Source: Nonlabens xylanidelens (GTDB lineage: Bacteria; Bacteroidota; Bacteroidia; Flavobacteriales; Flavobacteriaceae). From it: 64,000 nucleotides of DNA. The position numbers were made by a program, and so were the translations under genes. Where the stretch lies: assembly GCF_002934445.1 (NCBI RefSeq), contig NZ_PTJE01000001.1, positions 620,001 to 684,000 on the forward strand, given 5' to 3'. This document shows, one piece after another, positions 2,395 through 60,373 of this stretch. The notes beneath the pieces are model-generated. The model had not been told where the DNA came from and did not search any database. It worked only from the letters and a program-made list of their open reading frames with translations. Each line of letters starts with the position of its first letter. The first letter of the stretch is position 1.

Positions 2395-3180
2395 TTATTT
2401 CTTAACAGGATTGATCTCATAAACGTCCACACGTTTATCATGCCAAAGATAAAGTTTTCCGCCCTTTAGATAAAGGGTTTTAATGTCCTTTTCTAAGATG
2501 GTGATGGTTGCGATCTCGCTTTCGCGAAAGCGGAACGTTTTATCTAACTTATAAACCTTAATTATACCTTGTTTAAGTATAACTAGACTTTCAAAATCAT
2601 AATCTATAAGTGTGGTATTTTCTATAGCTAGGGAAGAGGTTTTACTACCGTAGGAATTAAATGTTTCTATAGAATGATCACTCAGCACATGACAAAAATT
2701 ATAATCACTGTATAATTGAGATGTAGTTTCTTTTAAAACAGCAGTGCTTATTAGAGTCTTGTTATTAATGTAATCGTATAACTCTAGACGGTTTTGGTCC
2801 AGATCGTGTAACCATAAACGGCGCTCGCCGGCTAGTCTAGCGTGTTCTATAAATCTGCTAGGTGTTAGTTGATTTAAAAGAATACGCTGCTTTTCATTAA
2901 GCCTATTATCTAGTAAAACTATGGTCTGAGTGTCTTTATAGAATAATAAAATGCTTAATGGGTTGATAAGATCTACCTCAGTTAAATCGCCTAATTGTAG
3001 GTCATAGAATTGTGTGACCTCTTTACCGTTTTTCTTGAAAAAGGCATCGTTTTTACCATAATAAACAGCGCCAAAATCATCAAGACCATAGAAAGAGTCT
3101 GCCGTAAGATTAAAACCTTGATCTATTTTTTGAGCCCAAGAAAGCGAGCTTATAAAAAGTAAAAAGAATATCCATTTCAT
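2395..3180 (-). CDS. Exported hypothetical protein, possibly beta-propeller
   Basis: I do not recognise a named family with certainty. The ATG at 3180 (MKWIFFLLFISSLSWAQ) gives a compact signal peptide ending in an alanine-type cleavage site; an ATG five codons upstream would only lengthen it. The mature part of about 245 residues is rich in short beta-strand-like segments ending in D or N turns (YDLQLGDLTEVDL, RLWLHDLDQNRLELYDY, LYLWHDKRVDVYEI). This suggests a propeller-like periplasmic or surface protein. A CGCTTTCGCGAAAGCG palindrome lies inside the gene and encodes RFRES in the segment KTFRFRESEIAT. It sits 2 nt upstream of the deoxynucleoside kinase gene, an unexplained pairing. Confidence 0.65.
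   Translation of the reverse strand: MKWIFFLLFISSLSWAQKIDQGFNLTADSFYGLDDFGAVYYGKNDAFFKKNGKEVTQFYDLQLGDLTEVDLINPLSILLFYKDTQTIVLLDNRLNEKQRILLNQLTPSRFIEHARLAGERRLWLHDLDQNRLELYDYINNKTLISTAVLKETTSQLYSDYNFCHVLSDHSIETFNSYGSKTSSLAIENTTLIDYDFESLVILKQGIIKVYKLDKTFRFRESEIATITILEKDIKTLYLKGGKLYLWHDKRVDVYEINPVKK
2517..2532. repeat. 16-bp palindrome CGCTTTCGCGAAAGCG, copy 1 (in gene, RFRES)
   Basis: Exact copy inside the exported hypothetical gene. It is read as RFRES, and the flanks extend the symmetry (TCTCGC...GCGGAA). Confidence 0.95.
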
Positions 3181-3263
3181 AAAAGCAAAGTACAACTAAC
3201 TAAGGACTTTTATAATATGATTCTATTTACTTTAATAACTAGTAATATTAACTAACGACTATT

Positions 3264-3953
3264 TTACGGCGCCATTAATTTATATCCATAACCACGCACG
3301 TTAACTATTTCTAACTGGTCGTCTTGCGCTAGTTTTTTTCTTAACTTAGTAATAAATACATCCATACTACGGCCAGAGAAAAAGTCATCATTACCCCATA
3401 ATTTTTTAAGAATAAAAGTACGGTCTAGTACTTTGTTTTTCTTTAAAACAAGGTGGTATAACAAGTGTGATTCTCTATGAGTCAATTTAGTAACCTCTTC
3501 TTTATAAATAAGTTGTTGTTTTGGGAAATTAAAAGAATAGTCGCCTAGTTCATAAATAGCAGCGGTTTTTTGAACCGTCTGTCTACTCAATAGGTTTTCT
3601 ATGCGCACTATAAGTTCTTCCATAGAAAAGGGTTTTTTAAGGTAGTCATTACCACCTACATGAAAACCTTCTAGAACGTCTTCTGTTTGAGATTTTGCGG
3701 TTAGAAAAATAATAGGAATTTCTTCATTCTCTACGCGTATTTTCTTAGCAAGTTCAAAACCGTCTAGTTGCGGCATCATTACATCTAGTACCAGTATGTC
3801 TGGTTGTTTTTCATGAAAAGCATCTAGTGCTAGTGCACCGTTTTCTTTATGTCGTACACTAAAACCTCTAGTCTCTAGACTTTCTTTTACGATCATTCCT
3901 AATGCAGGTTCATCTTCGGCTAGGATAATGTCTATGGTGGTATTTTTATTCAT
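3264..3953 (-). CDS. OmpR-family response regulator
   Basis: Cytoplasmic DNA-binding regulator of a two-component system. The N-terminal receiver domain shows the acidic pocket E13-D14, the phospho-acceptor D57 in VLDVMMPQLDG, the conserved T in FLTAK and the K in YLKKPFS. A winged-helix DNA-binding domain follows (about residues 130-229; THRESHLLYHLV, RSMDVFITKLRKKL). The length of 229 is normal. Its start overlaps the end of the sensor kinase gene by 8 bp, indicating translational coupling. The overall form resembles Bacteroides RprY. The pair is divergent from the GLPGLI/TonB-receptor genes, which are plausible targets, but that is inference. Confidence 0.95.
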   Translation of the reverse strand: MNKNTTIDIILAEDEPALGMIVKESLETRGFSVRHKENGALALDAFHEKQPDILVLDVMMPQLDGFELAKKIRVENEEIPIIFLTAKSQTEDVLEGFHVGGNDYLKKPFSMEELIVRIENLLSRQTVQKTAAIYELGDYSFNFPKQQLIYKEEVTKLTHRESHLLYHLVLKKNKVLDRTFILKKLWGNDDFFSGRSMDVFITKLRKKLAQDDQLEIVNVRGYGYKLMAP

Positions 3954-5553: not shown

Positions 5554-6402
5554 ATGAAATCATTTAATCTAAGTATGTTATTCTTTGTCGTTCTCGCTTT
5601 CGCGAAAGCGTACACAGTACAAGCACAGCAAGACTTTACTGGTATCGCCCATTACCAAAGTAAAATGACTATGAAACAATCTGAAGATAGCACTCAAATG
5701 GCAAAACTAGAGCCTGCTATGCGAGAGATGATAGAAGAGGCTATGAAAAAAGCTGGTGAGGCAGAATTTACTCTCAAGTTTAACCGTACAGAGTCGCTTT
5801 ATGAAAAAGTAAAGAAACTTGCTGCACCTAAGAAACCAGTAAATGGTATGAGTATGACCATTGAAATGAGTGGTAATGGAGATACTTATGGTACTACTTA
5901 CAAGGATCTTACTGCGCAAACCTTTCTAAGAGAAGATAACATTCAAGGAAAGGAATTTCTCGTAACTGATAAAATTGAAAAGCTAGATTGGAAAGTGACT
6001 GGAGAGACTAAAATGATAGGTAAATATACTGCGATGAAAGCAACCTATACTTTTCCTAAAGAAGAGAAGGAAGAAAGTGAAGAAGAATCTACAAGTTTAT
6101 TAAACATGGTAGATGACAAAGAACACGTAGTAACCGCATGGTTTACTATGGATATTCCTATAAGTAATGGTCCTGGAATTTATCAAGGATTACCTGGTTT
6201 AATACTAGAACTCAATGAAGGAGAGATAACTATTTTATGTAATAAAATAGAAATGAATCCAGAAGATTTTGAAATTAAAAAGCCTAGAAAAGGAAAAGAG
6301 ATATCTACTGAAAAATTCAACAAACTAAGAGATAAAAAGGCAAAAGAAATGAGAGAACGTTTTAAAAGCGGCAGTGGTGGTGTTTTTATCGAGACGCACT
6401 AG
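5554..6402 (+). CDS. GLPGLI family protein 1
   Basis: Exported protein with the family hallmark GIYQGLPGLILELNEG at about residues 208-223. The signal peptide runs over about the first 25 residues and ends in VQAQ. Upstream of this site AFAKA is encoded by a CGCTTTCGCGAAAGCG palindrome. The mature protein is rich in K, E and M. The biochemical role of the family is not established; members often sit next to TonB-dependent receptors, as here. The protein shares a common plan with the next gene (conserved WKVTGET.MIG and LKFNR segments), so they are tandem paralogs. The length of 282 is typical. Confidence 0.9.
   Translation: MKSFNLSMLFFVVLAFAKAYTVQAQQDFTGIAHYQSKMTMKQSEDSTQMAKLEPAMREMIEEAMKKAGEAEFTLKFNRTESLYEKVKKLAAPKKPVNGMSMTIEMSGNGDTYGTTYKDLTAQTFLREDNIQGKEFLVTDKIEKLDWKVTGETKMIGKYTAMKATYTFPKEEKEESEEESTSLLNMVDDKEHVVTAWFTMDIPISNGPGIYQGLPGLILELNEGEITILCNKIEMNPEDFEIKKPRKGKEISTEKFNKLRDKKAKEMRERFKSGSGGVFIETH
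5595..5610. repeat. 16-bp palindrome, copy 2 (in signal peptide, AFAKA)
   Basis: Exact copy read as AFAKA inside the signal peptide of GLPGLI protein 1. Confidence 0.95.
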
Positions 6403-7355: not shown

Positions 7356-7379
7356 ATAACACTTAAATCAAAACTTTTT

Positions 7380-7414: not shown

Positions 7415-7430
7415 AATCAAAAAACTTAAC

Positions 7431-10225: not shown

Positions 10226-10241
10226 CGCTTTCGCGAAAGCG
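10226..10241. repeat. 16-bp palindrome, copy 3 (intergenic)
   Basis: Exact copy, about 24 bp after the terminator of the receptor gene. Confidence 0.95.
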
Positions 10242-10436
10242 AAATTATTGCATCCCCAAACTTAATTATATAGTGTGATGTATGTGATCTAATACAGTTG
10301 CTGTTGTTTTCTAAACTTTTATTGAAATCACTTAATTTAAAGGCTACTTTAACTAAAGAGTAATCGCAAGATTAAGTTATTGCGTGTATGTCAGTTAAAC
10401 TGCTCTTAAGTAGTAGTTAATTATGTTAATTCCTTA

Positions 10437-10444
10437 TACTTTTG
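10437..10444 (+). promoter_or_regulatory. Promoter -7 box TACTTTTG close to the start codon
   Basis: TAnnTTTG box ending only 5 nt before the ATG at 10450. Transcription would start at or next to the start codon, suggesting a leaderless or near-leaderless mRNA. It also argues against the in-frame upstream ATG at 10423. No TTG is found at the usual distance upstream. Confidence 0.5.
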
Positions 10445-10449
10445 GTACT

Positions 10450-13362
10450 ATGAAAAGAATTTTATTGCTATTAGTGATTATTGCGAGTAGTGTTGCCACT
10501 GCACAAGAATTTACAGATACTCGTATCAAAGAAATGATCAATGAGTACCGACAGCTCGATCGTGGACCGTACAAGAGTATCAACTGGTTTTGCCCAGACG
10601 GTACCATTAGAGACGCAAAAGATCCTTGTCCAGATGCTATAGGTGAAGGAATACAACATGCTAGTTATAAGAAAGATGTTGAAGAACTGGCTAGAAAACG
10701 CAATATCTATTTTGCCGAAATTCTTGCCTCTAATAAAGTATGGAGTTTCTGGGATGGTAATAATAATCACAGCCGTGTAAAACAATATCAATTAGGTAAA
10801 TACCTAGAGTCTGTTGATAATGGCTGGATACAAGAACGTTCTAAATTTTATCGCGGTGCAAAACAAATTGAGGACGAAGAAGAATGGGGACGTAAATTCT
10901 ATTATACCATACTATCAGATAACGATCTGGTAGAGCGCGATTTCTTTTTAATAAGAGAGAGTTTGCGAGATATACCCCATGACGGTGATACTAACCTGGC
11001 TCAAGATATTAGAAGTCTAAGTAAGGTACTTGCAGAGCGTCACTCAAAGTTTATGGACATCAGGATTAAAATTCACGGTAATCCACAAGCTGCGGATATT
11101 GAGTCTGTAAAAAAATGGTTAGATAAAAATGAAGGCGATATAAGCGAGCAGTCTAAAAAAGACTTCAATAAGCTTATGGTTGACATGCAAGAGTTTTTTG
11201 AACCAGTATCTGTAAAAGACTTAAGTAAAATGGTGGCAGACTGGAATGAAGACGCCTACATAAGAACACAAACAGAATGGTTCTCAAAATTTTATGCTAC
11301 TGAAACAGATCCTGCCATATTAGTACCTGCAGCTGCAAATTTAATGTGCGATATTAAAACCAATATTAAGGATGATAAAAGAGGTACACGACGTACTAAT
11401 GCACTAGAATTAAGTATAAGATTAGAAGAATTAATCTTTCAGCAGGCAGGTAGCTGGGAGCCGGTAGATCTTCAAGAACATTTGGATAAAATATATTCCC
11501 TTAGTGAGGCGCTGGCAAGTGCTGGTTATGTAGAAATGTGGGAATGGGACGCTATAGAGAGCGAATTATTTCTAGCCAATGGTGAGACTATAAAAGCACA
11601 TGAATTACTCGATTTTATCAATACTGGTCGCAGCCAGGTAGAATGGGGAACAGGTATGGTAAACGCTATTTATGGAGACGTGGTAGAACAATATTCTCAG
11701 TTTGAACCTAAGGCATATGGTTTCTATGACGACCGTATAAGAAGTTCTTTGCTTTTACCTCTAGGTGATGCGATAGGTAATTTAGGCGGTTTAGTCTCTA
11801 GACAGATAGGTCTTACTAGTCAGATAGCAAGTGTAAATAATGTGAGTACCATAAGAGGTCTTAATCCTGGATATACAAAAGGAGAACTGGTAGTAGTAAG
11901 CGGTAATGCCGAAGGTATGCAGGTAGACCCTAATAAAATCTACATTTTTGATCATCCACCTAGTGATTTAAAACCTGTCGCTGGTATAGCAACAGTGTCA
12001 GAAGGTAATCTAGTTTCTCACGTGCAATTATTGGCGCGTAATTTAGGTATTCCTAACGCTGCTATTTCTATAGATAACTTAAATGATTTAAAAGAACTTG
12101 ATGGAGAAGAGATTTTCTATGCTGTGAGTAATCGTGGTACGGTGGTTATTAAATCGGCTAGGGAGATGAATGATAAAGAAAATGCTCTTTTCAATACCGC
12201 TAGCAAGAAAGAAAAGAAAACCATCAGAATTCCAGAAGGTAAACTTAAACTAGATGGCGTCTTACCTTTAGACATGGCTGCTGTAGGCAGTTCGGACAGT
12301 GGTATTCTTTGTGGTCCTAAGGCGGCAAATTTGGGTCAATTAAAACAGCTTTTCCCTGATAAAGTAGTGAATGGGATTGTGATTCCGTTTGGGGTTTTTA
12401 AAGATCATATGAATCAAAGTATGCCAGAAACTAATGGTAGTTACTGGGATTTTTTGATGTCCGCTTTCGCGAAAGCGAAACAGTTAAAAGCAGATGGAAA
12501 ATCAGAACAAGAAATTATAGATTACCAACTAGGTGAACTAGCTATTCTTAGAGATGCTATTTCTAAAATGGAATTTAAACCAAGTTTTATAAATGCTCTA
12601 GAGGCTGATTTTAAATCTATTCTAGGAGATAAACTAGGTAATGTGCCTGTATTTTTGCGTAGTGATACCAATATGGAAGACCTTGAAGAGTTTACTGGAG
12701 CCGGTTTAAATCTTACTGTTTTTAATGCTGTGGCAAGAGAAAAAGTAATCAATGGAATACGTGAGGTATGGGCCAGTCCTTATACAGAGCGTAGTTTTAA
12801 ATGGAGACAAGTATATCTAGAAAATCCAGAGAACGTATATCCATCGATATTAATTATTCCCACGGTAGATGTAGATTATAGTGGTGTATTAATAACCAAA
12901 GATTTTATTAATGATAATGAGAATTCTATTACGGTTGCTATGAGTCGTGGTGCTGGTGGTGCCGTAGATGGACAGAATGCCGAAACGTATTTAATAGATC
13001 AAGAAGGAAAAGGCTTATTGATCTCTCCGGCTAGAGAAAACAAGCAACGCAAATTACCTGTAACTGGTGGGTCTGTGATGGAGCATGTAGATTTTGACAC
13101 AAGTATATTAACGTCGCAAAATTTAAAAACCATTAGAGAGTTTGCTAAAACGGTGCACGAGATCATGCCAGGTTCTAAAGACGGTAGTTATACTGGCGCA
13201 TGGGATATTGAGTTAGGTTTTAAGGATGGTAAAATGTACTTATTCCAGATAAGGCCATTTGTAGAAAATACACAAGCTGTAAATTCTGAATACCTAAATT
13301 CTATCGATGCAGATGTTGATGTAAACACTGCTTTATTATTACATAAACCTATTGCAATTTGA
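10450..13362 (+). CDS. Exported dikinase-like protein: phosphohistidine domain followed by PPDK_N/PEP-synthase ATP-grasp domain
   Basis: The start at 10450 gives a clean signal peptide (MKRILLLLVIIASSVATAQ). Residues about 20-460 are a helical region I do not recognise. A swivelling phosphohistidine-type domain follows (about 480-570) with SHVQLLARNLGIPNAA, where H524 matches the catalytic His. The C-terminal ATP-grasp/PPDK_N domain spans about 598-945 (LCGPKAANLGQL, VFLRSDTNMEDLEEFTGAGL, QIRPF). A His domain before a C-terminal nucleotide domain is the order of glucan water dikinases. PpsA, PPDK and rifampicin phosphotransferase have it reversed. Export of an ATP-using enzyme is unusual. It overlaps the following serine hydrolase gene by 4 bp. 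A palindrome copy inside encodes AFAKA. Substrate unknown. Confidence 0.8.
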   Translation: MKRILLLLVIIASSVATAQEFTDTRIKEMINEYRQLDRGPYKSINWFCPDGTIRDAKDPCPDAIGEGIQHASYKKDVEELARKRNIYFAEILASNKVWSFWDGNNNHSRVKQYQLGKYLESVDNGWIQERSKFYRGAKQIEDEEEWGRKFYYTILSDNDLVERDFFLIRESLRDIPHDGDTNLAQDIRSLSKVLAERHSKFMDIRIKIHGNPQAADIESVKKWLDKNEGDISEQSKKDFNKLMVDMQEFFEPVSVKDLSKMVADWNEDAYIRTQTEWFSKFYATETDPAILVPAAANLMCDIKTNIKDDKRGTRRTNALELSIRLEELIFQQAGSWEPVDLQEHLDKIYSLSEALASAGYVEMWEWDAIESELFLANGETIKAHELLDFINTGRSQVEWGTGMVNAIYGDVVEQYSQFEPKAYGFYDDRIRSSLLLPLGDAIGNLGGLVSRQIGLTSQIASVNNVSTIRGLNPGYTKGELVVVSGNAEGMQVDPNKIYIFDHPPSDLKPVAGIATVSEGNLVSHVQLLARNLGIPNAAISIDNLNDLKELDGEEIFYAVSNRGTVVIKSAREMNDKENALFNTASKKEKKTIRIPEGKLKLDGVLPLDMAAVGSSDSGILCGPKAANLGQLKQLFPDKVVNGIVIPFGVFKDHMNQSMPETNGSYWDFLMSAFAKAKQLKADGKSEQEIIDYQLGELAILRDAISKMEFKPSFINALEADFKSILGDKLGNVPVFLRSDTNMEDLEEFTGAGLNLTVFNAVAREKVINGIREVWASPYTERSFKWRQVYLENPENVYPSILIIPTVDVDYSGVLITKDFINDNENSITVAMSRGAGGAVDGQNAETYLIDQEGKGLLISPARENKQRKLPVTGGSVMEHVDFDTSILTSQNLKTIREFAKTVHEIMPGSKDGSYTGAWDIELGFKDGKMYLFQIRPFVENTQAVNSEYLNSIDADVDVNTALLLHKPIAI
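12462..12477. repeat. 16-bp palindrome, copy 4 (in gene, AFAKA)
   Basis: Exact copy inside the exported dikinase-like gene, read as AFAKA in the ATP-grasp half (MSAFAKAKQ). Confidence 0.95.
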
Positions 13363-18605: not shown

Positions 18606-19739
18606 ATGAGCGGCATTTACATACATATTCCATTTTGTAAGCAGGCTTGTCACTATTGCGATTTCCATTTTAGCACTAATTTAAAGTATAAAAAGGATAT
18701 TATAGATGCTATTTGTGATGAGTTACGCTTTCGCGAAAGCGAATTTAAAAACACCACTGTGCAAACTATTTACTTAGGTGGTGGGACGCCTAGTGTGCTA
18801 GAAGTTGCTGAGGTAGAAAAAATTATACAAACCGTTTTTGATGTTTATACGGTAAGCTCAAATCCAGAGATTACTCTAGAAGCAAATCCAGATGACTTAA
18901 CTAAAGAAAAGATAGTCGCTTTTTCAAACACACGTATCAATAGACTTTCTATAGGAGTTCAAAGTTTTTTTGAAGAAGATCTCAAACTCATGAATAGAGC
19001 GCATAATGCTGTGGAAGCGCATGAGTGTATAGAATTTGCCGTGCCTTATTTCCCTAACATATCCATAGATCTCATTTATGGAATTCCAGGCATGAGCGAG
19101 GCTCGGTGGAGAGAAAATCTACATAAAGCTATAGATTTAAAAGTGCCACATATTTCTAGTTATGCATTAACGGTAGAGGATAATACAGCGCTTAAATCAT
19201 TTATTGAAAAAGGAATGATTGAAAACGTAGATGATGAGGTGGCACAAGAGCATTTTCAAATCTTGCTAGATGTTATGCAACTGCATGGCTTTGAAAACTA
19301 TGAGTTTTCTAATTTCAGTAAACCAGGTTTCTTCTCGCAAAATAATACCGCTTACTGGACAGGTAAAAGCTATATAGGTATAGGTCCTAGTGCACATAGT
19401 TTTGATGGTAAAAAACGCGGCTGGAATATCAATAATAACGTCAAATATCTAAAAGCTATTCAGGCTGGAGAGTTACCTATGGAAATAGAAGAACTCACCG
19501 TAGTTGATAGGTATAATGAGTACATAATGACTGGTTTACGGACTATTTATGGAGTCTCACTACATAAGATAGAAACTGATTTCGGTCCTAATTTTAAAGA
19601 ATATCTTTTAAAACAAGCTGCCGAATATCTTAAAGATCACTTGTTATATATAGATGGTGATACACTATTAGTGACTAGAAAGGGTAAGTTTTTAAGTGAC
19701 GGTATTGCTAGCGCCCTATTCATGGTTAATCTGTCCTAG
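18606..19739 (+). CDS. hemW: Radical SAM heme chaperone HemW
   Basis: Cytoplasmic radical-SAM protein of the coproporphyrinogen-dehydrogenase-like family, thought to deliver heme rather than oxidise coproporphyrinogen. The cluster motif is C11-x3-C15-x2-C18 (FCKQACHYCDF), followed by YLGGGTPS and the conserved IGVQSF and ISIDLIYGIPGM segments. The length of 377 fits HemW. A CGCTTTCGCGAAAGCG palindrome lies inside and encodes RFRES (LRFRESEF) in a variable region. The start is fixed by the IYIHIPFC beginning and by the promoter placed directly upstream. Confidence 0.93.
   Translation: MSGIYIHIPFCKQACHYCDFHFSTNLKYKKDIIDAICDELRFRESEFKNTTVQTIYLGGGTPSVLEVAEVEKIIQTVFDVYTVSSNPEITLEANPDDLTKEKIVAFSNTRINRLSIGVQSFFEEDLKLMNRAHNAVEAHECIEFAVPYFPNISIDLIYGIPGMSEARWRENLHKAIDLKVPHISSYALTVEDNTALKSFIEKGMIENVDDEVAQEHFQILLDVMQLHGFENYEFSNFSKPGFFSQNNTAYWTGKSYIGIGPSAHSFDGKKRGWNINNNVKYLKAIQAGELPMEIEELTVVDRYNEYIMTGLRTIYGVSLHKIETDFGPNFKEYLLKQAAEYLKDHLLYIDGDTLLVTRKGKFLSDGIASALFMVNLS
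18726..18741. repeat. 16-bp palindrome, copy 5 (in hemW, RFRES)
   Basis: Exact copy inside hemW, read as RFRES. Confidence 0.95.
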
Positions 19740-23662: not shown

Positions 23663-25256
23663 GTAAAGGTGTGTTTTGTAGACTGTCATTTAACGTACTT
23701 GTTGCCAGACTATCTGCTTTATGTTGTTCTATTTGTAACTGTAATTGTTTTGATCTCGCTTTCGCGAAAGCGGAATAATCTTCCATCAATGTTCCATAAA
23801 TCATGCGACCTATTTTACGAGAGCCCTTAGGGCTGAAATGTGTAAAGTCATTATTAGCTAATTTCTGATCGGTCCATATAGGCATAGTATTCACGCCGCC
23901 CATCAGGTGAAAAAGACTCATAAAACCAGACTCGGTTTTTGCTGCATAATGTTGCTGTGCACGCAATAATTTTACCACGCTAGTATCTGTTTTCACAAGG
24001 TTTTCAAACTTAGTGCCCTTATCTGCAGTACCTAAAATAAGAATGTCTGTATTAGGAAAAGCCTGTTTTAGATGGTTTATAACCTTTGTCATTCTGCTAG
24101 AATACCAGTTGTAACTTTTAGACTCGCGAGTTAAAACATTTGCGCCAAATTGTAGGATGATGAGGTCGTAACCTAATTCTTGATCAAATTTTTTCATTTG
24201 ACCTATGTTCAAAATACTTAAAGGCAATCCAGAATTACCACGATTAGAAAACCCATCAACAGCAACACCTGTCGCGTCAGAAAAGTCTATTCCATAAATA
24301 GGTGTGTTTTGTGCACCAGAAAAGTCCAATTCTATTTTTTTGAGATTTTTACTTGATAGGTTTACGGTATTTAATCCGTTCTTACCTTTTAATGCGATTG
24401 AGTTAAAGGTGGTATCTTTTTCTTCTGTTACTTTTAAAAGAGCATTATCTGTTGCTGGACCGTAGAAAAGACGTGGAGAATTGAGTCTGTACGAGTTCTT
24501 TATACCACTAGCTAGATATTTTACACTCGCAGTAGAGTCTGCTGGAAAAAAAATAGCGCCATTTACACCATAAGGCAGGCTGTCTGCTCTTCCTTTCATA
24601 TAATTGCGCTGCGTCCAGTTACCGCTAGCATAATGTTTAACAGAATATCGAGATCGAGCACTTTCTGATTTTATCGAGACAAAACCTACACCACGACCGC
24701 CAAAACGAGTCTGCAATGCGCTTCTAAAATCTTGAACGATTAAATCACCATCTATCATGGAATCTCCATAATATGCAATGCGTACTTTTCCTTTTTTAGA
24801 TTGTTCTAGCTGGTATAATTTTTCAAAAAACCTCGCTAGATTTTCACTGCCCTTATAGCTAGTGTATGAAATCGAGCCAGGAATAAGTGCAATACCGGCA
24901 GAGTCTACAGGGTGTTCTAGGTTGTAATTAAAATCTGTAGTTCTAATAAGGCTGGCATACGAGATCTTTTTTTTAGGTGTTATGATAGAGTCTTTTACTA
25001 TTACCGGTATGGAAACAGTATCAGTTGCAATCTTAGGACTAGTTAAGTTAATGGAGTCTTGGTCAAGTGTCAGAGGTTCTTGTTCTACGTCTTCCATTGC
25101 TTTTAACATTAAACTATCCACGACTATGTTAGTAGAGTTGGAGTTTTCTGTAAAAATCTTGCTAGGTAAGAAAGGTTTTGTAAAATAAAATAAGAGCGCG
25201 CCTATAGCTATAATAAAGAAAGCGTAGAAAAATTGTTTTTGATCCTTAAAAAGCAT
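23655..25256 (-). CDS. Membrane-anchored SGNH-like protein
   Basis: 533 residues with one N-terminal membrane helix (about 8-26) and a long proline/serine-poor linker. Block I reads YYGDSMIDGD, LQFGANV resembles block III, and DFTHFSPKG matches the D-x-x-H block V. It shares GRG-GFV and other segments with the neighbouring LysM-SGNH protein, so they are paralogs. By analogy with AlgJ/AlgX and DltD it may transfer or guide acetyl groups delivered by the MBOAT. A palindrome copy (23757-23772) near the 3' end encodes AFAKA in YSAFAKARSKQ. It is the first gene of the run. Confidence 0.82.
   Translation of the reverse strand: MLFKDQKQFFYAFFIIAIGALLFYFTKPFLPSKIFTENSNSTNIVVDSLMLKAMEDVEQEPLTLDQDSINLTSPKIATDTVSIPVIVKDSIITPKKKISYASLIRTTDFNYNLEHPVDSAGIALIPGSISYTSYKGSENLARFFEKLYQLEQSKKGKVRIAYYGDSMIDGDLIVQDFRSALQTRFGGRGVGFVSIKSESARSRYSVKHYASGNWTQRNYMKGRADSLPYGVNGAIFFPADSTASVKYLASGIKNSYRLNSPRLFYGPATDNALLKVTEEKDTTFNSIALKGKNGLNTVNLSSKNLKKIELDFSGAQNTPIYGIDFSDATGVAVDGFSNRGNSGLPLSILNIGQMKKFDQELGYDLIILQFGANVLTRESKSYNWYSSRMTKVINHLKQAFPNTDILILGTADKGTKFENLVKTDTSVVKLLRAQQHYAAKTESGFMSLFHLMGGVNTMPIWTDQKLANNDFTHFSPKGSRKIGRMIYGTLMEDYSAFAKARSKQLQLQIEQHKADSLATSTLNDSLQNTPLHD
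23757..23772. repeat. 16-bp palindrome, copy 6 (in gene, AFAKA)
   Basis: Exact copy near the 3' end of the membrane-anchored SGNH gene, read as AFAKA on the minus strand. Confidence 0.95.
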
Positions 25257-25446: not shown

Positions 25447-25462
25447 CGCTTTCGCGAAAGCG
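25447..25462. repeat. 16-bp palindrome, copy 7 (intergenic)
   Basis: Exact copy about 140 bp upstream of the sdhC promoter, with symmetric flanks TTC and GAA. Confidence 0.95.
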
Positions 25463-28350: not shown

Positions 28351-28366
28351 CGCTTTCGCGAAAGCG
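28351..28366. repeat. 16-bp palindrome, copy 8 (between sdhA and sdhB)
   Basis: Exact copy inside the sdhCAB operon, 18 nt after the sdhA stop and 24 nt before the sdhB ATG. In mRNA it can fold into a small GC-rich hairpin just ahead of the sdhB start. Confidence 0.95.
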
Positions 28367-32901: not shown

Positions 32902-33708
32902 ATGAAAAATCTAGTTATAGTTGCGGTTCTTGTTTTAAGTTCCGCTTTCGCGAAAGCGCAAGGAGAACAAATCGCAAAGGAATTAAGAGGCTACATCAAT
33001 GCCGATGTATCTGAGGAAATGATAGAGGTAAAAGATAAATCTGGAAAAACACACTACGTAAAAAGTGCCAAAGCTAAGACAGAACATCATATAGGTGGGA
33101 CAAGTACTTCTAATAGTACGGTTGTTTTTGATGCATTTAATGCACATCCAGAATGGCAAGACATGTCAGTCATTGTGGACTGGACTGGTAGTATGTATAG
33201 TTATGTAGGACAGGTGGTGAGATGGCACCATGTAAATAAGGACAAACAATTAATACATAACATGGTGTTGTTTAATGATGGAGATGATAGAAACCGCAAT
33301 GCAAACTCTGGTGCAAAGATTATAGGTGCTACAGGTGGTATATACCATCCAGATCATTCTGATATCGATGCATTTTTAAAGACTGTAGCTACTGCAGTAG
33401 ATAATGGAAATGGAGGCGACGGTCCAGAAAATGATATTGAGGCGGTTCTTGCCAGTCAGGAATTGTGCAACGGACAGAAGGATTTTGTCCTCATAGCAGA
33501 CTCTAGCGGCATAAGAGATATTTCGCTTGCTAGTCAGATTAAAAGACCGGTACATATCATTATATGTGATTACGTAACTGACGATTATATCAAACTTGCT
33601 CAAATGACCAAAGGGAGCATCACATGGCCAGGTGGTTATACAGACTATAGTGGAACTAACTGCAATAAACGACATGTGCATAGTCATGATGTCGTTTGTG
33701 CTGGGTAA
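32902..33708 (+). CDS. Exported von Willebrand factor A-like protein
   Basis: 268 residues. The signal peptide ends in SSAFAKAQ, where AFAKA is encoded by a palindrome copy. The core resembles a VWA domain: VIVDWTGSMYSY gives a metal-site motif (D-W-T-G-S instead of D-x-S-x-S), and GDGPENDIEAVLASQE resembles the second metal-binding segment. The C-terminus is rich in His and Cys (CNKRHVHSHDVVCAG), which could bind metal or form a disulfide. VWA proteins usually bind other proteins. The gene stands between two terminator or promoter regions and is probably transcribed alone. Confidence 0.72.
   Translation: MKNLVIVAVLVLSSAFAKAQGEQIAKELRGYINADVSEEMIEVKDKSGKTHYVKSAKAKTEHHIGGTSTSNSTVVFDAFNAHPEWQDMSVIVDWTGSMYSYVGQVVRWHHVNKDKQLIHNMVLFNDGDDRNRNANSGAKIIGATGGIYHPDHSDIDAFLKTVATAVDNGNGGDGPENDIEAVLASQELCNGQKDFVLIADSSGIRDISLASQIKRPVHIIICDYVTDDYIKLAQMTKGSITWPGGYTDYSGTNCNKRHVHSHDVVCAG
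32943..32958. repeat. 16-bp palindrome, copy 9 (in signal peptide, AFAKA)
   Basis: Exact copy read as AFAKA at the end of the signal peptide of the VWA-like protein. Confidence 0.95.
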
Positions 33709-39409: not shown

Positions 39410-40780
39410 ATGATCAAGTCACTTCACATTCTCTCGTTTATAGCTCTATTTTTCTTAAGTAACCTTATTGTTGCTCAAGAAGAAGTAACTTCAGACGATG
39501 TGAATGTGGATGATCTAGGTGATGTCTCTGACGGTTTTAAGGATAATTTTTTCAACGCACTTTCTGCAAAGGCTATCGGTAATCACGATAAGGCTATCTT
39601 ATTTCTAGAGGCTTGCGAAAAAATACAGCCAGATACTGGAGTGGTTCAGTTTGAAATGGGTAAGAACTATTTGATGAGTAACGCTTTCGCGAAAGCGGAA
39701 CAGAAAATCACTCGTGCCATAGAACTATCTGGAGAATCAGAATGGTTATTAGAAACTTTATATGATGTTTATAACAAACAAACGGAATATGAAAAATCAT
39801 TAACCGTACTTGAGAAATTGGCAAGAATTAATGAAAATTATGAGGAGCTGCTGCCATTTCAATACTTGAGAGCAAATAAAAATGAAGAAGCGCTAGCGAT
39901 TATAGAAAAACTAGATAAACGTCTAGGAGAGGACGACCGTCGCATACTGGTTAAAAGGCAGGTGCAAGCAAGACTAGGAGCAAATGAAGCTAGAGATGGT
40001 AATATTGAAGATCTAGAGGCTGCCATCGCTGCAAATCCCAAAGACGAAAAATCTTATATCAATCTCATTTACCTCTACAGTAAAAAGAATAATACAGATA
40101 AGGTTCAAGAAATAGCTGAGGAGCTGGATAAAAATTTGCCTAAAAGTGATAAAGCGCAACTTGCCCTTTATAAAATCTATCTAGAAGCTGGTAAAACACG
40201 CAAAGGAATCAGGAGCATGCAAAAGGTTTTTGAATCTACACAGTTTGATACAGAGACTAAAATAAATGTACTGAACGATTTTATACAGTCTGACGCTACA
40301 GACGTAGAAGATAATGATATTGATAACGCGATAAATGATTTTGCAGACCAGGTAGAAGATGTAAAAGCATTTAATGCACTGGGTGATTATTACCTTAAAA
40401 GAAAAGACGTAGGTAATTCTATAGCTTTTTATCAAAAAGGACTGGATATCGATAATAAGAATTACGACCTTATTAAAAAGATAGCGCTCTTAAGTATCGA
40501 TATAAAAGATTATAATAAAACAGTAGAGATTACTGAGGAGGCGCTGGACGTTTTTCCTGCGCAGGCATTGCTCTATTTGTTAAATGGTGTTGCACATAAT
40601 AAATTAAATGAACCAGATAAGGCGATAGATCAGCTAGAATCTGGATTGAGTTTTTTACTCGATGAGCCTAAGTTAGAAAGTGATATCTATCAACAACTAG
40701 CGATAAGTTATGATCAAAAAGGTGATACAACTAAAGCCGCAAAAATGCGTTCTAAAGTAAAGACGCTGTCTAAAAATTAA
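39410..40780 (+). CDS. Exported TPR protein of the envelope cluster
   Basis: 456 residues with a signal peptide (FLSNLIVAQE) and TPR-like helix pairs along most of its length (AIGNHDKAILFLEACEKI, ETLYDVYNKQTEYEKSLTVL, NALGDYYLKRKDVGNSIAFY, AHNKLNEPDKAIDQL, AISYDQKGDTTKAAKM). A palindrome copy (39682-39697) encodes AFAKA in MSNAFAKAEQK and fits into a TPR helix. It lies 19 bp after the nucleotidyltransferase and 2 bp before the DUF4292 gene, so it is co-transcribed with both. Confidence 0.87.
   Translation: MIKSLHILSFIALFFLSNLIVAQEEVTSDDVNVDDLGDVSDGFKDNFFNALSAKAIGNHDKAILFLEACEKIQPDTGVVQFEMGKNYLMSNAFAKAEQKITRAIELSGESEWLLETLYDVYNKQTEYEKSLTVLEKLARINENYEELLPFQYLRANKNEEALAIIEKLDKRLGEDDRRILVKRQVQARLGANEARDGNIEDLEAAIAANPKDEKSYINLIYLYSKKNNTDKVQEIAEELDKNLPKSDKAQLALYKIYLEAGKTRKGIRSMQKVFESTQFDTETKINVLNDFIQSDATDVEDNDIDNAINDFADQVEDVKAFNALGDYYLKRKDVGNSIAFYQKGLDIDNKNYDLIKKIALLSIDIKDYNKTVEITEEALDVFPAQALLYLLNGVAHNKLNEPDKAIDQLESGLSFLLDEPKLESDIYQQLAISYDQKGDTTKAAKMRSKVKTLSKN
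39682..39697. repeat. 16-bp palindrome, copy 10 (in TPR gene, AFAKA)
   Basis: Exact copy read as AFAKA within a TPR helix. Confidence 0.95.
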
Positions 40781-41538: not shown

Positions 41539-42744
41539 ATGAAAAAGCACTTTTACTTATCGATATTGTTTTTGTTGTGTTTCGTTTTCGCGAAAGCGCA
41601 ATCAGAAAAAGCAGCTCTAGAACAACGTAAAGCAGAAATTCAAAGAGAGATCAATCAATTTGATAGGTTGCTCAAAAACGTGCGTAAAGAAGAAAAAACA
41701 ATGGTGCTGCTGGTAGAGACCATTGATAAAAAGATATTACGTACTCAAGAGATTATTAATATTACTAATAAGCAAGCAAATAATCTGACAAGGAATATTA
41801 AAGCTAATGCTGCTGAGATTAAAAAATTAAATACAGAGGTAAAAGCTCTAAAAGCAGAGTATGCAGAGATGATTGTGAAGTCATATAAATCACAAAATGA
41901 TCAAAGTAGACTGATGTTTTTATTGAGTTCTGAAGATTTTTTACAGGCTTATAAAAGAGTACAATATTTAAAATCCTATGCAGACTACCGTAAGAAACAA
42001 GCAGAAGAAATAACGATAAAATCCGACGCTATTGCAGCAAAAAATGTAGCGCTAGAAGAAGAGAAAAAAGAAAAGAATAAAGTTCTAGCACTCAATAAAA
42101 AGCAAAGGGCAGCACTTAAAATTGATAAAGTAGAACAAGAGAACCTGCTTGCGGTGGTTAAAGAAAACGAGAAGAAGTATGCCGCAGATATAAAGGTAAA
42201 AGCAAAAGAGCGCAACAAAATAGACCGAGAACTTAAAGCACTTATTGCAGCCGATATTAAAGCATCTAATAAAGGTAAAACAGGTGCCGTAGCAAATAAA
42301 TTCTTCTTAACACCTGAAGCAAAAATTCTAGCTAATAATTTTAAAAGTAATAAAGGCAAATTACCATGGCCGGTAGAAGAAGGTTTTGTTTCTAGACGTT
42401 ATGGTACGCAACCACACCCAGTAGTAAGATCGCTTACCATTGATTCAAATGGAATTAGATTACAAAGTCCTGGCGGTGCAAAAGTGCGTGCTATTTTTGA
42501 AGGCGAAGTGATACGTATTACAAAAAGTAAATATGGTATACTCGCGGTACACATAAGACATGGTAACTACACTTCTATATATGATAATCTCAAGTCTGTA
42601 AGTGTCGAAAAAGGAGATATGGTAAATACAAAAGATATCATAGGAGAAATTTTTACCTCTAATTCTGGAGAAACAGAACTTAAATTTGTCCTCATGCAGG
42701 ATAATGATACCGTAGACCCTGCACAGTGGATTGCGAGAAAATGA
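41539..42744 (+). CDS. EnvC-like murein hydrolase activator with degenerate M23 domain
   Basis: 401 residues. The signal peptide ends FVFAKAQ, where AKA comes from a 1-mismatch palindrome copy. A long coiled coil (about 22-255, rich in K, E, A) leads to a C-terminal LytM/M23-like domain (about 280-400; GFVSRRYGTQPHPV, GAKVRAIFEGEVI, GNYTSIYDNL). Where active M23 peptidases have the LHFE-type metal His, this protein has ELKFVLMQ, so it is probably catalytically dead. It would act as an activator of amidases in cell separation, as in E. coli EnvC. Last gene of the envelope cluster. Confidence 0.87.
   Translation: MKKHFYLSILFLLCFVFAKAQSEKAALEQRKAEIQREINQFDRLLKNVRKEEKTMVLLVETIDKKILRTQEIINITNKQANNLTRNIKANAAEIKKLNTEVKALKAEYAEMIVKSYKSQNDQSRLMFLLSSEDFLQAYKRVQYLKSYADYRKKQAEEITIKSDAIAAKNVALEEEKKEKNKVLALNKKQRAALKIDKVEQENLLAVVKENEKKYAADIKVKAKERNKIDRELKALIAADIKASNKGKTGAVANKFFLTPEAKILANNFKSNKGKLPWPVEEGFVSRRYGTQPHPVVRSLTIDSNGIRLQSPGGAKVRAIFEGEVIRITKSKYGILAVHIRHGNYTSIYDNLKSVSVEKGDMVNTKDIIGEIFTSNSGETELKFVLMQDNDTVDPAQWIARK
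41583..41598. repeat. Palindrome variant CGTTTTCGCGAAAGCG, copy 11 (AFAKA frame)
   Basis: One mismatch (second base of the GCT codon), so AFAKA becomes VFAKA in the signal peptide of the EnvC-like protein. Confidence 0.85.
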
Positions 42745-43970: not shown

Positions 43971-43986
43971 CTCTTTAGCGAAAGCG
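43971..43986. repeat. Degenerate palindrome CTCTTTAGCGAAAGCG
   Basis: Two mismatches to CGCTTTCGCGAAAGCG, both in the left half; the right half and the following AG are conserved. Probably a decayed copy. Confidence 0.6.
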
Positions 43987-46280: not shown

Positions 46281-47324
46281 ATGGACTTTTCTAGGCAACT
46301 TATTGATTGGTATGTAGTTAACAAGAGAGAGCTGCCGTGGCGCGATACTCAAAACCCATATTTTATTTGGCTTAGTGAGGTCATATTACAGCAAACTCGC
46401 GTTAAACAAGGGTTACCTTACTATAAAAGTTTTGTTAAAAACTACCCTACAGTTCAAGAACTAGCCGCTGCACCCCAAGATGATGTGCTTAAATTATGGC
46501 AGGGATTAGGCTATTATTCCCGCGCTACAAATTTACAAGCTGCCGCTGTGCAAATAGTCGATAATGATCTTAAATTTCCTAATACTTATAAAGAACTGCT
46601 TACTTTAAAAGGAGTAGGTGATTATACCGCAGCGGCGATTGCTAGCTTTGCCTTTAATGAAGCGGTTGCTGTCGTGGACGGTAATGTGTATCGTGTCCTG
46701 TCACGTATATATGGTATCGCAACACCTATTAATGTGCCGGCTGGTGTTAGAGAATTTAAGGAATTAGCTAGTAAATTGCTTAATAAGAAAGACCCTGCTA
46801 CGCATAATCAGGCGATAATGGAATTTGGTGCGATGCAGTGCATGCCCAAAAATCCTGATTGTGACACCTGTCCTTTTCAAAAAGATTGTGTCGCATTTAA
46901 TGAAGGTAGAATTGCAGAGTTACCAGTAAAGATTAAGAAGACTAAGGTTAAGAGCCTTTTCCATCATTATATAGTTATACAGACGCCGTCCAAAAAACTT
47001 CTATTTAATCAGCGCGATAACAGTAGTATATGGGCTGGGTTATTTGAGTTTCCTTATATAGATGCTAGTGGCGGACTGTTGCCAGTAGAGTTAACAGAGC
47101 ATGAAGTGTTTAAAGATGTTGTTGGTGGGTCTCGCTTTCGCGAAAGCGTATACAACCAAGAGCCTATTATCCATAAATTATCTCACAGAAAGATACATGC
47201 CTATTTCTGGATTGTGGAGGTAGAAGATGAGATAAACGGTGCTATTACTATTGAAGAGGCTCAAGAAAGACCTGTACATGTATTGATGGAGCGTTTTATG
47301 AAAGATTTTTGGCAATTGAAATAA
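46281..47324 (+). CDS. mutY: A/G-specific adenine DNA glycosylase
   Basis: Removes adenine opposite 8-oxoguanine. The catalytic Glu lies in WLSEVILQQTRVKQG. The helix-hairpin-helix is LKGVGDYTAAAIASFAF followed by VVDGNVYRVLSR, with the conserved Asp. The [4Fe-4S] ligands are C-x6-C-x2-C-x5-C (CMPKNPDCDTCPFQKDC). The C-terminal about 120 residues form the NUDIX-like 8-oxoG recognition domain, in which a palindrome copy encodes RFRES (GSRFRESVYN). The gene order mutY-ssb-gldE-gldD is as known in Flavobacterium. Confidence 0.96.
   Translation: MDFSRQLIDWYVVNKRELPWRDTQNPYFIWLSEVILQQTRVKQGLPYYKSFVKNYPTVQELAAAPQDDVLKLWQGLGYYSRATNLQAAAVQIVDNDLKFPNTYKELLTLKGVGDYTAAAIASFAFNEAVAVVDGNVYRVLSRIYGIATPINVPAGVREFKELASKLLNKKDPATHNQAIMEFGAMQCMPKNPDCDTCPFQKDCVAFNEGRIAELPVKIKKTKVKSLFHHYIVIQTPSKKLLFNQRDNSSIWAGLFEFPYIDASGGLLPVELTEHEVFKDVVGGSRFRESVYNQEPIIHKLSHRKIHAYFWIVEVEDEINGAITIEEAQERPVHVLMERFMKDFWQLK
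47133..47148. repeat. 16-bp palindrome, copy 12 (in mutY, RFRES)
   Basis: Exact copy in the C-terminal domain of mutY, read as RFRES. Confidence 0.95.
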
Positions 47325-51265: not shown

Positions 51266-51281
51266 CGCTTTCGCGAAAGCG
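51266..51281. repeat. 16-bp palindrome, copy 13 (intergenic)
   Basis: Exact copy between divergent genes, with symmetric flanks TTC and GAA giving a 22-bp perfect palindrome. Confidence 0.95.
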
Positions 51282-54100: not shown

Positions 54101-54499
54101 TTAATATCTATAATTGCGATCTTTCTTTTTGTCGCTATGTTTCTTCTTATCATTAAGACGTTTTCGTTTAACAGACTTAGGTACAGTCCTTTTTCTACGT
54201 ACTTTAATGATTACACTAGCTTTGGAAAGTATGGCTAGTAATTTTTTAAAAACCAGTTCTTTATTTTTGGCCTGACTTCTAGATTCTTGACAATTGACTT
54301 GTAAAACGCCATCGCTAGTAAGTTGTTTAAATAGCGCTGTTTTAATCCTTTCGTGTTCCGCTTTCGCGAAAGCGAGACTATTTAAAACATCAAAATACAA
54401 TTGAACCTTTGTGGCCACCTTATTTACATTTTGTCCACCGGGACCACTGCTGGCAACTGCTTTATATTGCACTTCTTTATGTAGTTGTTCTATATTCAT
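54101..54499 (-). CDS. arfB: Peptidyl-tRNA hydrolase ArfB-type ribosome rescue factor
   Basis: 132 residues with the release-factor GGQ motif in SSGPGGQNVNKVATKVQL at about residues 17-34. The basic C-terminal tail (VRRKRTVPKSVKRKRLNDKK) should enter the mRNA channel of stalled ribosomes. It frees peptides from stalled ribosomes lacking a stop codon. A palindrome copy encodes AFAKA in SLAFAKAEHER. Its start overlaps the stop of the DUF4301 gene by 1 bp. Confidence 0.92.
   Translation of the reverse strand: MNIEQLHKEVQYKAVASSGPGGQNVNKVATKVQLYFDVLNSLAFAKAEHERIKTALFKQLTSDGVLQVNCQESRSQAKNKELVFKKLLAILSKASVIIKVRRKRTVPKSVKRKRLNDKKKHSDKKKDRNYRY
54359..54374. repeat. 16-bp palindrome, copy 14 (in arfB, AFAKA)
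   Basis: Exact copy read as AFAKA on the minus strand. Confidence 0.95.
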
Positions 54500-57199: not shown

Positions 57200-57459
57200 T
57201 AAAAGAAAGGCTCATAATCATGACGGTCTGTTTTAACCACTTTCATGTAAAAGAGAACTGCTTTAGTCTCTTCCATACTTTTTGCCATTTCCTTAGTTAA
57301 GAAACTCATCATAGCAGTAAAATCTCCATAAATTTGTGTAGCTAATGGGTTTTCTAAGACCTCAAATTCAGAATCACGCAGCGTTTTTATGAATTTGATG
57401 ATGTGTTGCTCATAATCATCTTGTAATGGCGACATAGTAAGTTCAATAGATGCTTTCAT
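57199..57459 (-). CDS. Thiamine-binding-like protein (UPF0045/MTH1187-YkoF family)
   Basis: The start at 57459 (MKASIELTMSPLQDDYEQHI) is typical of the family; an ATG at 57492 that overlaps the previous gene by 8 bp is possible. At 86 residues it has the compact ferredoxin-like fold expected: FIKTLRDSEFEVLENPLATQ and IYGDFTAMMSFLTKEM. Family members bind thiamine or act as small metabolite sensors. Its stop overlaps the pnuC start by 1 bp. Confidence 0.78.
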   Translation of the reverse strand: MKASIELTMSPLQDDYEQHIIKFIKTLRDSEFEVLENPLATQIYGDFTAMMSFLTKEMAKSMEETKAVLFYMKVVKTDRHDYEPFF

Positions 57460-57484
57460 TTTTTTTGGTTTCGGTGTTACAAAG

Positions 57485-58216
57485 CTAGCCATTCCATTTG
57501 ATATTCTCTTCAATTGCTGTTCCTACTACTACCATTTGTGCGCCTGCATCATAAACGGACCGTATATCTTGAACAGTTCGCAAGCCGCCGCCTACTATTA
57601 ATGGAATATGAAGTTGTTGTGTTACTTCACGCACTATGTCTGTAGAAACCGATTTTAGAGCGCCGCTACCAGCTTCTAAATAAACTAATCTATTTCCCAT
57701 AAGTTGTGCAGCATATGCATGATTCACAATAGAATCCATATCGTGCTGTGGTAATGGCAGAGTTTGCGAGATGCGTTGCACGGCTGTCTCTTTGCCGCCA
57801 TCTATAAGTAAATATCCAGTAGGAACAACTTCTAGATTTGATTTCTTTAATTTATTTGAAGCACGGACTTGTTGTTCTATTAAAAAATCAGAGTTGCGTC
57901 CTGAAACTAGATTTAAAAATAGCAATGCATCCGCATTTTCAGATAGTTGATGGTGAGATCCCGGAAAGATAACGATCGGTATATTGCTATTTTCTTTTAA
58001 TTTGTTAACCCATTTGTCAAAATTTACGTTCTCCATCGTGCTGCCACCTACAAAAAAATAAAATTGATCTATTTGTAGTTTTTCTTTAAGGTTGTGGATG
58101 GTTATGGAAACCGCTTTCGCGAAAGCGGGAATCGCATCCATCTCCATTTTTTCTGGATCTATAAGAATGGATAAACAGCGATTTGCTTGCTCAATTGTTT
58201 TGAGAATATCAGGCAT
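57485..58216 (-). CDS. Geranylgeranylglyceryl/heptaprenylglyceryl phosphate synthase
   Basis: 243 residues, TIM-barrel enzyme of the GGGPS/PcrB family. LSILIDPEKM at the N-terminus, FFVGGSTMENVNFDKWVNKL, IVIFPGSHHQLSENADALLF, YLEAGSGALKSV and LIVGGGLRTVQDI are the phosphate- and prenyl-binding segments. It joins a polyprenyl diphosphate to glycerol-1-phosphate, as in archaeal lipid synthesis; some Bacteroidota enzymes of this group have been characterised. Its role in the cell is unclear. A palindrome copy encodes AFAKA (IPAFAKAVSI). It overlaps the phosphopantetheinyl transferase gene by 8 bp. Confidence 0.93.
   Translation of the reverse strand: MPDILKTIEQANRCLSILIDPEKMEMDAIPAFAKAVSITIHNLKEKLQIDQFYFFVGGSTMENVNFDKWVNKLKENSNIPIVIFPGSHHQLSENADALLFLNLVSGRNSDFLIEQQVRASNKLKKSNLEVVPTGYLLIDGGKETAVQRISQTLPLPQHDMDSIVNHAYAAQLMGNRLVYLEAGSGALKSVSTDIVREVTQQLHIPLIVGGGLRTVQDIRSVYDAGAQMVVVGTAIEENIKWNG
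58112..58127. repeat. 16-bp palindrome, copy 15 (in GGGP synthase gene, AFAKA)
   Basis: Exact copy read as AFAKA near the N-terminus of the GGGP synthase. Confidence 0.95.
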
Positions 58217-58844: not shown

Positions 58845-58864
58845 AAAAACCGGTTGATTTTTTG

Positions 58865-58872
58865 TAAGTTTG
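58865..58872 (+). promoter_or_regulatory. Promoter -7 box TAAGTTTG and leader hairpin upstream of ahcY
   Basis: TAnnTTTG box 84 nt before the ahcY ATG, without a TTG at standard spacing. The leader contains a small hairpin (GTTGATT 58910-58916 with AATCAAC 58925-58931). Confidence 0.4.
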
Positions 58873-58956
58873 CAGCCGCAATTTAATAAATAAAAAATAC
58901 TTTTAATTTGTTGATTTTGAATAGAATCAACGACTTATATATTAAAATAAAATTCT

Positions 58957-60273
58957 ATGAGCAATAAAACAGTTCCTTACGTACCTAATAAAGTAAAAGA
59001 CATGTCTCTTGCAGAGTATGGACGTTTAGAAATTCAACTTGCCGAGGCAGAGATGCCTGGTTTAATGTCATTGAGAGAAGAATACAAAGATGAGCAGCCA
59101 CTTAAAGGTGCTCGTATCGCAGGATGTCTTCACATGACTATTCAAACTGCAGTTCTTATTGAGACTCTTGTCGCTTTAGGAGCAGATGTTACTTGGTCTT
59201 CTTGTAATATATTTTCTACACAAGATCATGCCGCTGCTGCTATCGCTGCTGCTGGTATCCCTGTTTATGCTTGGAAAGGTATGAATGAAGAAGAATTTAA
59301 CTGGTGTATCGAGCAAACTCTTTTCTTTGGAGAAGATCGCAAGCCGTTAAATATGATTCTTGATGATGGTGGTGATTTAACTAACATGGTTTTTGATGAA
59401 TATCCAGAACTAGCTGCTGGTATCAATGGTTTATCTGAAGAGACTACAACTGGTGTTCACAGATTATACGAGCGTATGAAGAATGGTACTCTAGTAATGC
59501 CAGCCATCAACGTTAATGATTCTGTTACTAAATCTAAGTTTGATAATAAATACGGTTGTCGTGAGAGTGCTGTAGATGCTGTACGTCGTGCAACAGATAC
59601 TATGCTTGCTGGTAAGCGTGTGGTAGTTTGTGGATATGGTGATGTAGGTAAAGGTAGTGCTGCTTCTTTTAAAGGTGCTGGTTCTATCGTTACGGTTACT
59701 GAAATAGATCCTATTTGTGCATTACAAGCAGTTATGGATGGTTTTGAAGTTAAGAAACTTGAGAACGTGGTAGGTAATGCAGACATCGTTATTACTACCA
59801 CTGGTAATAAGGATATTATACGCGGTGAGCACTTTGAGGCTATGCGCGATAAGGTTATTGTTTGTAACATCGGACATTTTGACAATGAGATAGATGTGGC
59901 TTACTTAAATACTAATCATGGTGACTCTAAAGTAGAAATTAAGCCACAAGTAGATAAGTATACTATTAACGGTAAAGACATCATACTTCTTGCTGAAGGC
60001 CGTCTTGTGAACTTAGGTTGTGCGACTGGTCACCCAAGTTTTGTAATGAGTAACTCATTTACTAATCAGACTCTTGCGCAAATTGAACTTTGGAATAATA
60101 GAGATGCTTATGAAAATGAAGTATACATGTTACCTAAGCATCTTGATGAAAAAGTAGCTGCGCTTCACTTAGAGAGAATGGGAGCAGAGCTTACTGAATT
60201 GAAAGAAGATCAAGCAGAATATATAGGCGTAAAAGTTGAAGGTCCTTTCAAGCCAGAATATTATAGATATTAA
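58957..60273 (+). CDS. ahcY: Adenosylhomocysteinase
   Basis: 438 residues. Splits S-adenosylhomocysteine into adenosine and homocysteine and so keeps methylation going. The N-terminal substrate domain shows [20 protein letters not shown] and [14 protein letters not shown]. The NAD domain has [20 protein letters not shown], and [11 protein letters not shown] and [14 protein letters not shown] follow. The C-terminus PFKPEYYRY is the usual family end. Palindrome copies avoid the gene; the nearest ones lie about 830 bp before it and 85 bp after it. Confidence 0.98.
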
Positions 60274-60357
60274 GAATTCTTAAATATTCTAGCCATTTGT
60301 TAGGAAATTCAAATAAATTGACTAACTTTTGGCATCGTAATTGCTTTTAAATAGTTA

Positions 60358-60373
60358 CGCTTTCGCGAAAGCG
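60358..60373. repeat. 16-bp palindrome, copy 16 (intergenic)
   Basis: Exact copy 20 bp before the ATG of the 72-residue protein and 85 bp after the ahcY stop. Confidence 0.95.

Follow-up and report, generated by a model that had tools for sequence, protein, structure and literature searches.

A dispersed palindrome in Nonlabens and other Flavobacteriaceae as a putative chromosome-wide self-tag

Copies in the window and anatomy of the element

The stretch of DNA analysed here (the window) comprises 64,000 nucleotides of the Nonlabens xylanidelens genome (contig NZ_PTJE01000001.1, positions 620,001 to 684,000), and it contains many copies of a perfect 16-bp palindrome, CGCTTTCGCGAAAGCG. A search of the window returns 15 exact copies, one copy with one mismatch (41583) and one with two (43971), 17 matches at up to two mismatches, in the same number and places as reported in the initial annotation. 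Its expectation of far less than one copy by chance is borne out by 100 dinucleotide shuffles of the window, each of which contains 0 matches to the palindrome. The open reading frame (ORF) list likewise agrees, placing five exact copies between genes (10226, 25447, 28351, 51266 and 60358) and ten within ORFs. That several copies extend to 22 bp was overstated, since only one of the 15 exact window copies (51266) is a perfect 22-bp palindrome; the proportion is 14 of 101 in 464 kb. Rfam (gathering threshold) and tRNA scans of the window give no matches. The copies, none of which is assigned a strand, are listed below with the strand of any enclosing ORF and the state of orthologous sites in four genomes of other species (G010, G202, G208 and G209).

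2517..2532, exact 16-bp palindrome, within ORF 2395-3195 (-)
5595..5610, exact palindrome, within ORF 5554-6402 (+), coding for AFAKA close to the N-terminus
10226..10241, exact palindrome, intergenic
12462..12477, exact palindrome, within ORF 10423-13362 (+), PPDK_N domain protein
18726..18741, exact palindrome, within ORF 18606-19739 (+), HemN-like radical SAM protein; exact in G010 and G202
23757..23772, exact palindrome, within ORF 23655-25256 (-); exact in G010, G202, G208 and G209
25447..25462, exact palindrome, intergenic
28351..28366, exact palindrome, intergenic, directly past the SdhA-like ORF 26330-28333; exact in G010 and G202
32943..32958, exact palindrome, within ORF 32902-33708 (+), coding for AFAKA close to the N-terminus; exact in G010
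39682..39697, exact palindrome, within ORF 39410-40780 (+), TPR protein; exact in G010 and G202
41583..41598, copy with one mismatch; orthologous sites of G010 and G202 are exact
43971..43986, copy with two mismatches, from the search of the window at up to two mismatches
47133..47148, exact palindrome, within ORF 46281-47324 (+), HhH-GPD/NUDIX (MutY-like) protein; exact in G010, G202, G208 and G209
51266..51281, exact palindrome, intergenic, sole 22-bp form of the window; exact in G010
54359..54374, exact palindrome, within ORF 54101-54499 (-), RF-1 domain protein; exact in G010, G202, G208 and G209
58112..58127, exact palindrome, within ORF 57485-58216 (-), PcrB-like protein; exact in G010 and G202
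60358..60373, exact palindrome, intergenic; exact in G010, G202, G208 and G209

The 464 kb contain 101 exact copies, where base composition predicts 0.000, together with 17 copies carrying one mismatch, six carrying two and one carrying three; the reversed word has no match there below three mismatches. Because the mismatches sit mainly on the outermost base, the core is the 14-mer GCTTTCGCGAAAGC. The element is a near-invariant 14-bp core, usually extended to 16 bp, which with a 31-bp arm on each side forms a symmetric zone about 78 bp long. Left arms are poor in C and right arms are poor in G, and on each strand a T/G-rich arm is found 5′ of the core. Among 314 distinct Nonlabens sites, with both arms pooled, this bias depends on position as far as 31 bp from the core and is faint farther out, with T preferred at positions 2-3, 6, 9, 11-13 and 23-31 and G or A at positions 4-5 and 14-17. 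The bias does not differ between genes and gaps, and no co-variation links mirror positions, which indicates a signal at the DNA level rather than a longer stem. Dokdonia arms have the same C-poverty and a different base adjoining the core, and the arm bias is weaker in genome G190, which represents a further genus.

Abundance, placement and conservation

The initial annotation proposed counting the word over the whole genome. In the 3.28 Mb of the home assembly (21 contigs) the count is 579 exact 16-mers and 664 14-mers, against 0 copies of the reversed control word, and is therefore nowhere near chance. Copies in the 464 kb are spaced 4.6 kb apart on average with a coefficient of variation (CV) of 0.48, and 0 of 20,000 random placements are equally even; in smaller samples the CV is 0.54 (Dokdonia), 0.63 (G199) and 0.76 (G190). 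With genes and gaps assigned by mechanical ORF calling, 57 of the 101 copies fall in ORFs (91 expected from the coding fraction) and 44 are intergenic (9.7 expected). The in-ORF copies are read in three frames, as AFAKA (37), RFRES (13) or LSRK (7). Three 20-kb stretches are poor in sites: one with a ribosomal-protein operon, enolase and citrate synthase (one copy), one with a nonribosomal peptide synthetase cluster (none) and one with a polysaccharide cluster (one). No trend from origin to terminus is seen in the one complete genome sampled, which has 52 sites per 260 kb in the origin half and 38 per 220 kb in the other, the origin and terminus being placed by a noisy GC skew and one stretch (L290) having an oddly low GC of 0.225, perhaps from masked bases.

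At orthologous positions the element is kept far more closely than its surroundings. In G010, 12 of 15 window sites are alignable and all 12 are exact, and in G202 all eight alignable sites are exact (six in genes, two intergenic). Ten of the 15 can be aligned in each of the other two species, with six exact and four carrying one difference in G208, and six exact, three carrying one difference and one carrying two in G209. Divergence within the 16 bp is accordingly 0% in G010 and in G202 and 2.5% in each of G208 and G209; more than 60 bp from the site it is 7.5-13% in G010 and 20-28% in G202, G208 and G209. Sites in genes are conserved at synonymous positions as well, which argues that selection or drive acts on the DNA. 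Apart from a single 1-base gap, all interspecies differences at alignable sites are substitutions.

About 5 kb before the window, at ~15243-15829 of locus L082, two copies are separated by 571 bp, less than any other exact pair in the 464 kb, and flank a small ORF resembling a short membrane protein. G000 and G202 differ by a rearrangement whose ends fall on copies at 51266-51281 of the window and at 20093 and 70487 of an 80-kb region of G202. In contig C9 of G010 (~13.8-14.5 kb, L159), ~650 bp lie between two copies where the G208 counterpart (L174) has a single copy, as if recombination between copies had removed or added the stretch. An enrichment of breakpoints at the palindrome was considered and dropped: 25 of 314 breakpoints lie within 60 bp of a copy, against ~8 at random, yet copies occupy 44 of 255 gaps (17%), and the figures are no evidence for it.

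Distribution among bacteria and phages

Dense carriers are Nonlabens, Dokdonia and the genus of G190, and the other Flavobacteriaceae examined have 0-13 exact copies. Across Nonlabens, 23 of 23 genomes carry 180-737 copies; the genome with 180 is 78% complete as assembled, and counts in genomes of 90% completeness or more begin at 255. A sample of the family (199 genomes, 198 genera) includes 26 genomes with any copy, namely two congeners (579 and 495), G190 (153) and 23 others with 1-12. The 12-mer core matches in 104 of 397 family genomes and is abundant only in four congeners (566-685), G190 (445) and G227, which is Dokdonia sinensis (917); the rest have 0-21. Across 395 genomes sampled from the phylum, counts of the 14-mer are 0-6 per genome except in the home genome, which has 664. 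A search for the 22-bp form gives, by name, mostly Nonlabens and Dokdonia contigs among the matches listed. Exact counts are 630, 550, 711 and 230 in four Dokdonia genomes, 423 in strain BBFL7 and 422 in N. xiamenensis, with 13 in Patiriisocius marinus, eight in Leeuwenhoekiella nanhaiensis and 1-3 in four others. With up to two mismatches allowed, ten samples, each from a different genome, have one copy per ~3.3-5.7 kb, and in species poor in exact copies it is the outermost base that varies; the spread of exact counts therefore overstates the differences between species. Non-carrier genera, sampled in 14 stretches of 20 kb, yielded no comparable palindrome, which is a weak test for rarer or non-palindromic motifs, and four 20-kb samples from carriers in the same survey have 4-7 copies of the inner 10-mer. 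The exact 16-mer occurs in none of the papers searched. Shorter cores occur in 18, none of which deals with a flavobacterial repeat to judge by its title, and among the entries listed by topic (25 of 1,992 for one topic) no title or beginning of an abstract points to this repeat; an earlier description in a subscription paper is possible.

The three carrier genera are not united in trees of ParB (26 rows) or SdhA (28 rows), and a single clade is rejected for SdhA (approximately unbiased test, p-AU 1.2e-5); each tree is built from one gene, possibly a transferred one, and has weak forks. In the ParB tree the Nonlabens proteins sit on a long stem branch (L317). A search for orthologous sites across genera gives few matches. 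Taken at face value, these gene trees suggest that the trait is patchy, the recognition system having spread or been lost repeatedly. Several other genera have a few copies that are clustered with recurring spacings of 933 and ~2,446 bp (L096, L105 and related loci). In two such genera (G078 and G144) the surrounding genes, named from their translations, encode a CusA-like pump and, next to it, either a multicopper-oxidase-like protein with an outer-membrane efflux protein or a metal P-type ATPase. These clustered copies in metal-efflux loci are likely islands received from tag-bearing donors.

Two Nonlabens phages, neither with an annotated integrase, have no match within three mismatches, where the density of the host would give 6-8 copies each. 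In IMG/VR the 16-mer is present in 30 contigs (41 stretches), 11 of them with at least two copies; the high-GC contigs among these probably reflect chance or other hosts. Of two phage contigs examined, one has four copies in 23.9 kb together with tape-measure and integrase genes, and the other has six in 37.4 kb with portal, terminase and tail-sheath genes. No near match was found for one phage piece searched among phages or for one piece of the window searched among plasmids.

Self-tag or chromosome-maintenance site

We tentatively interpret the palindrome as the core of a dyad-symmetric, chromosome-wide self-tag of about 78 bp, putatively and most likely a DNA-uptake or species-recognition sequence. 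In Nonlabens, Dokdonia and the G190 genus, fragments that bear the tag would be favoured for entry into the cell or for delivery to recombination, and recombination would then copy tagged alleles across the population. Such drive could account for the near-perfect copies, for their residence in permissive places (gaps and stretches read in the AFAKA frame) and for their absence from the two Nonlabens phages; even spacing would follow if a second tag nearby adds no benefit. The 16-mer holds 34.8 bits of information, where 12.5-13.5 bits suffice to find 579 sites, and this excess, the all-or-none state of the copies and their even spacing together suggest that biased transmission, and not occupancy alone, pushes the motif. 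The anatomy with its arms, the conservation, the spacing, the distribution and the presence of ComEC are observed; we infer that a dimeric protein reads the tag, that DNA uptake is the process and that drive maintains it. Transformation is established in the related genus Riemerella (PMC7965970, PMC8459023), and Riemerella columbina prefers its own DNA in transformation (PMC7965970).

The closest known systems are the DNA uptake sequences (DUS) of Neisseriaceae and the uptake signal sequences (USS) of Pasteurellaceae, which are likewise described as hundreds of near-perfect, evenly spaced copies, over-represented in intergenic DNA yet often found in ORFs, with a core, T/A-rich arms and genus-specific variants or dialects (PMC1939737, PMC2397512, PMC7811141, PMC3630211). 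Uptake sequences have also been linked to the length of recombination tracts (PMC2397512). Unlike them, the Nonlabens element is a perfect palindrome with arms on both sides, belongs to Bacteroidota and occurs about once per 4-5 kb, whereas USS occur about once per 1 kb (PMC7811141). It resembles an uptake sequence in its distribution and is not classed as one here, being palindromic and having a putative effect on uptake.

Several observations weigh against the self-tag. Known uptake sequences are described as non-palindromic (PMC1939737). ComEC is present in 16 of 16 genomes searched, in carriers and non-carriers alike, and so does not explain the distribution, and no receptor or other recogniser emerged when ParB and ComEC were checked across carriers and non-carriers. 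DNA that cannot be aligned between species retains sites at about half the density (8 in 78 kb, compared with 76 in 386 kb of aligned DNA), with the two densities near equal when G202 is taken alone (0.232 and 0.259 per kb). Phage contigs with integrase or Mu-like genes have up to six copies, which suits an intracellular role, and that some phages of such hosts carry the tag speaks against a purely extracellular one. The fairly constant density at up to two mismatches also suits a structural need. A threefold spread of exact counts had been taken to mean that the motif is dispensable and driven, an argument that was dropped once this density proved similar in ten samples; the similarity lowers the uptake interpretation and raises its intracellular rival.

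That rival, which we regard as a serious contender, is a chromosome-maintenance site in which each palindrome would be bound by a putative homodimeric protein that acts in chromosome organisation, segregation or repair. The perfect dyad with mirror-symmetric arms, the retention of orthologous positions, the similar density across species and the copies in phage contigs with integrase or Mu-like genes all fit such a site. The parS, Noc and MatP sites are palindromes read by dimers, and the half-site TTTC...GAAA of the Nonlabens element is similar to that of parS and Noc sites; however, its half-sites are two base pairs closer, its copies number hundreds and no origin-to-terminus trend is seen in the sampled 480 kb of the one complete genome. 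A second ParB or Noc protein as its reader is disfavoured, as each of eight carriers (8/8) has one ParB_N protein, like most relatives, and no ParB residue is common to carriers yet missing from others. None of the parS-like words tried lies near parB, and 1.42 Mb of Nonlabens DNA has hardly any of them (two copies of a single 12-mer form). In a two-way, Chi-like version, a recombination nuclease would encounter an identical sequence whichever side it arrived from, and the arm rich in T and G, 5′ of the core on each strand, would become the 3′ tail for RecA, which favours GT-rich DNA. Chi sites have a similar density, about one per 5 kb, and the T,G-rich strand of the Nonlabens element is on the side expected for RecA loading; unlike this 16-bp palindrome, Chi is a short, directional sequence. 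For any such site, the sequence information is far above what occupancy needs.

The initial annotation had listed four possible roles, and the uptake or species tag and the chromosome-organising site both stand. The other two, a palindrome upheld by mutation bias like HIP1 (GCGATCGC) and the target of a methylase on a short core, now appear improbable. HIP1 of cyanobacteria, like the Nonlabens element, is a dispersed palindrome found in genes and gaps, but HIP1 has 8 bp and the Nonlabens element is 14-16 bp long and evenly spaced, with arm bias to 31 bp, and its short inner cores are not enriched outside the 14-mer (TCGCGA, 40 seen against 46.5 expected; TTCGCGAA, six against 4.9). The 10-mer TTTCGCGAAA is in mild excess there (six against 0.5), which fits a few decayed copies; counts for the half-sites CGAAAGCG and GAAAGCG are inflated by the overlap test and were not used. 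Very improbable is a transcription terminator or a mobile element, in the form of a small palindrome of the REP, RPE or MITE-like kind. Copies are dispersed and the 16-mer can fold as a hairpin, at -4.3 kcal/mol as DNA (52 of 200 shuffles are as good) and -8.4 kcal/mol in the 22-bp form (2 of 200), but the symmetric arm positions lack the co-variation of a longer stem. The substitutions that separate aligned sites reveal no insertion into homologous sequence, and the claim that the palindrome is unlike terminators holds, given the majority of copies in ORFs and only four of 43 classified intergenic copies in convergent gaps, which make up 23% of gap length.

The self-tag interpretation admits a bolder extension, which we consider doubtful: a new class of self-mark, a palindromic two-way element of ~78 bp with a putative dimeric recogniser of its own, that spread to three genera un-united by two gene trees and, with a tag every 3-6 kb, separates host from phage DNA. 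To our knowledge, genome-wide recognition tags with a tested function are limited to few groups, with the uptake sequences of Pasteurellaceae and Neisseriaceae as the chief examples. If true, the patchy presence of a palindromic tag in three genera of marine Bacteroidota would mean a wider origin or spread of such marks. The tag may also serve as a marker of gene flow, with tagged islands elsewhere pointing to donors of the Nonlabens or Dokdonia type, and it would make testable, in harmless organisms, the old question of whether evenly spaced motifs come from DNA-uptake drive or reflect what the structure of the chromosome requires.

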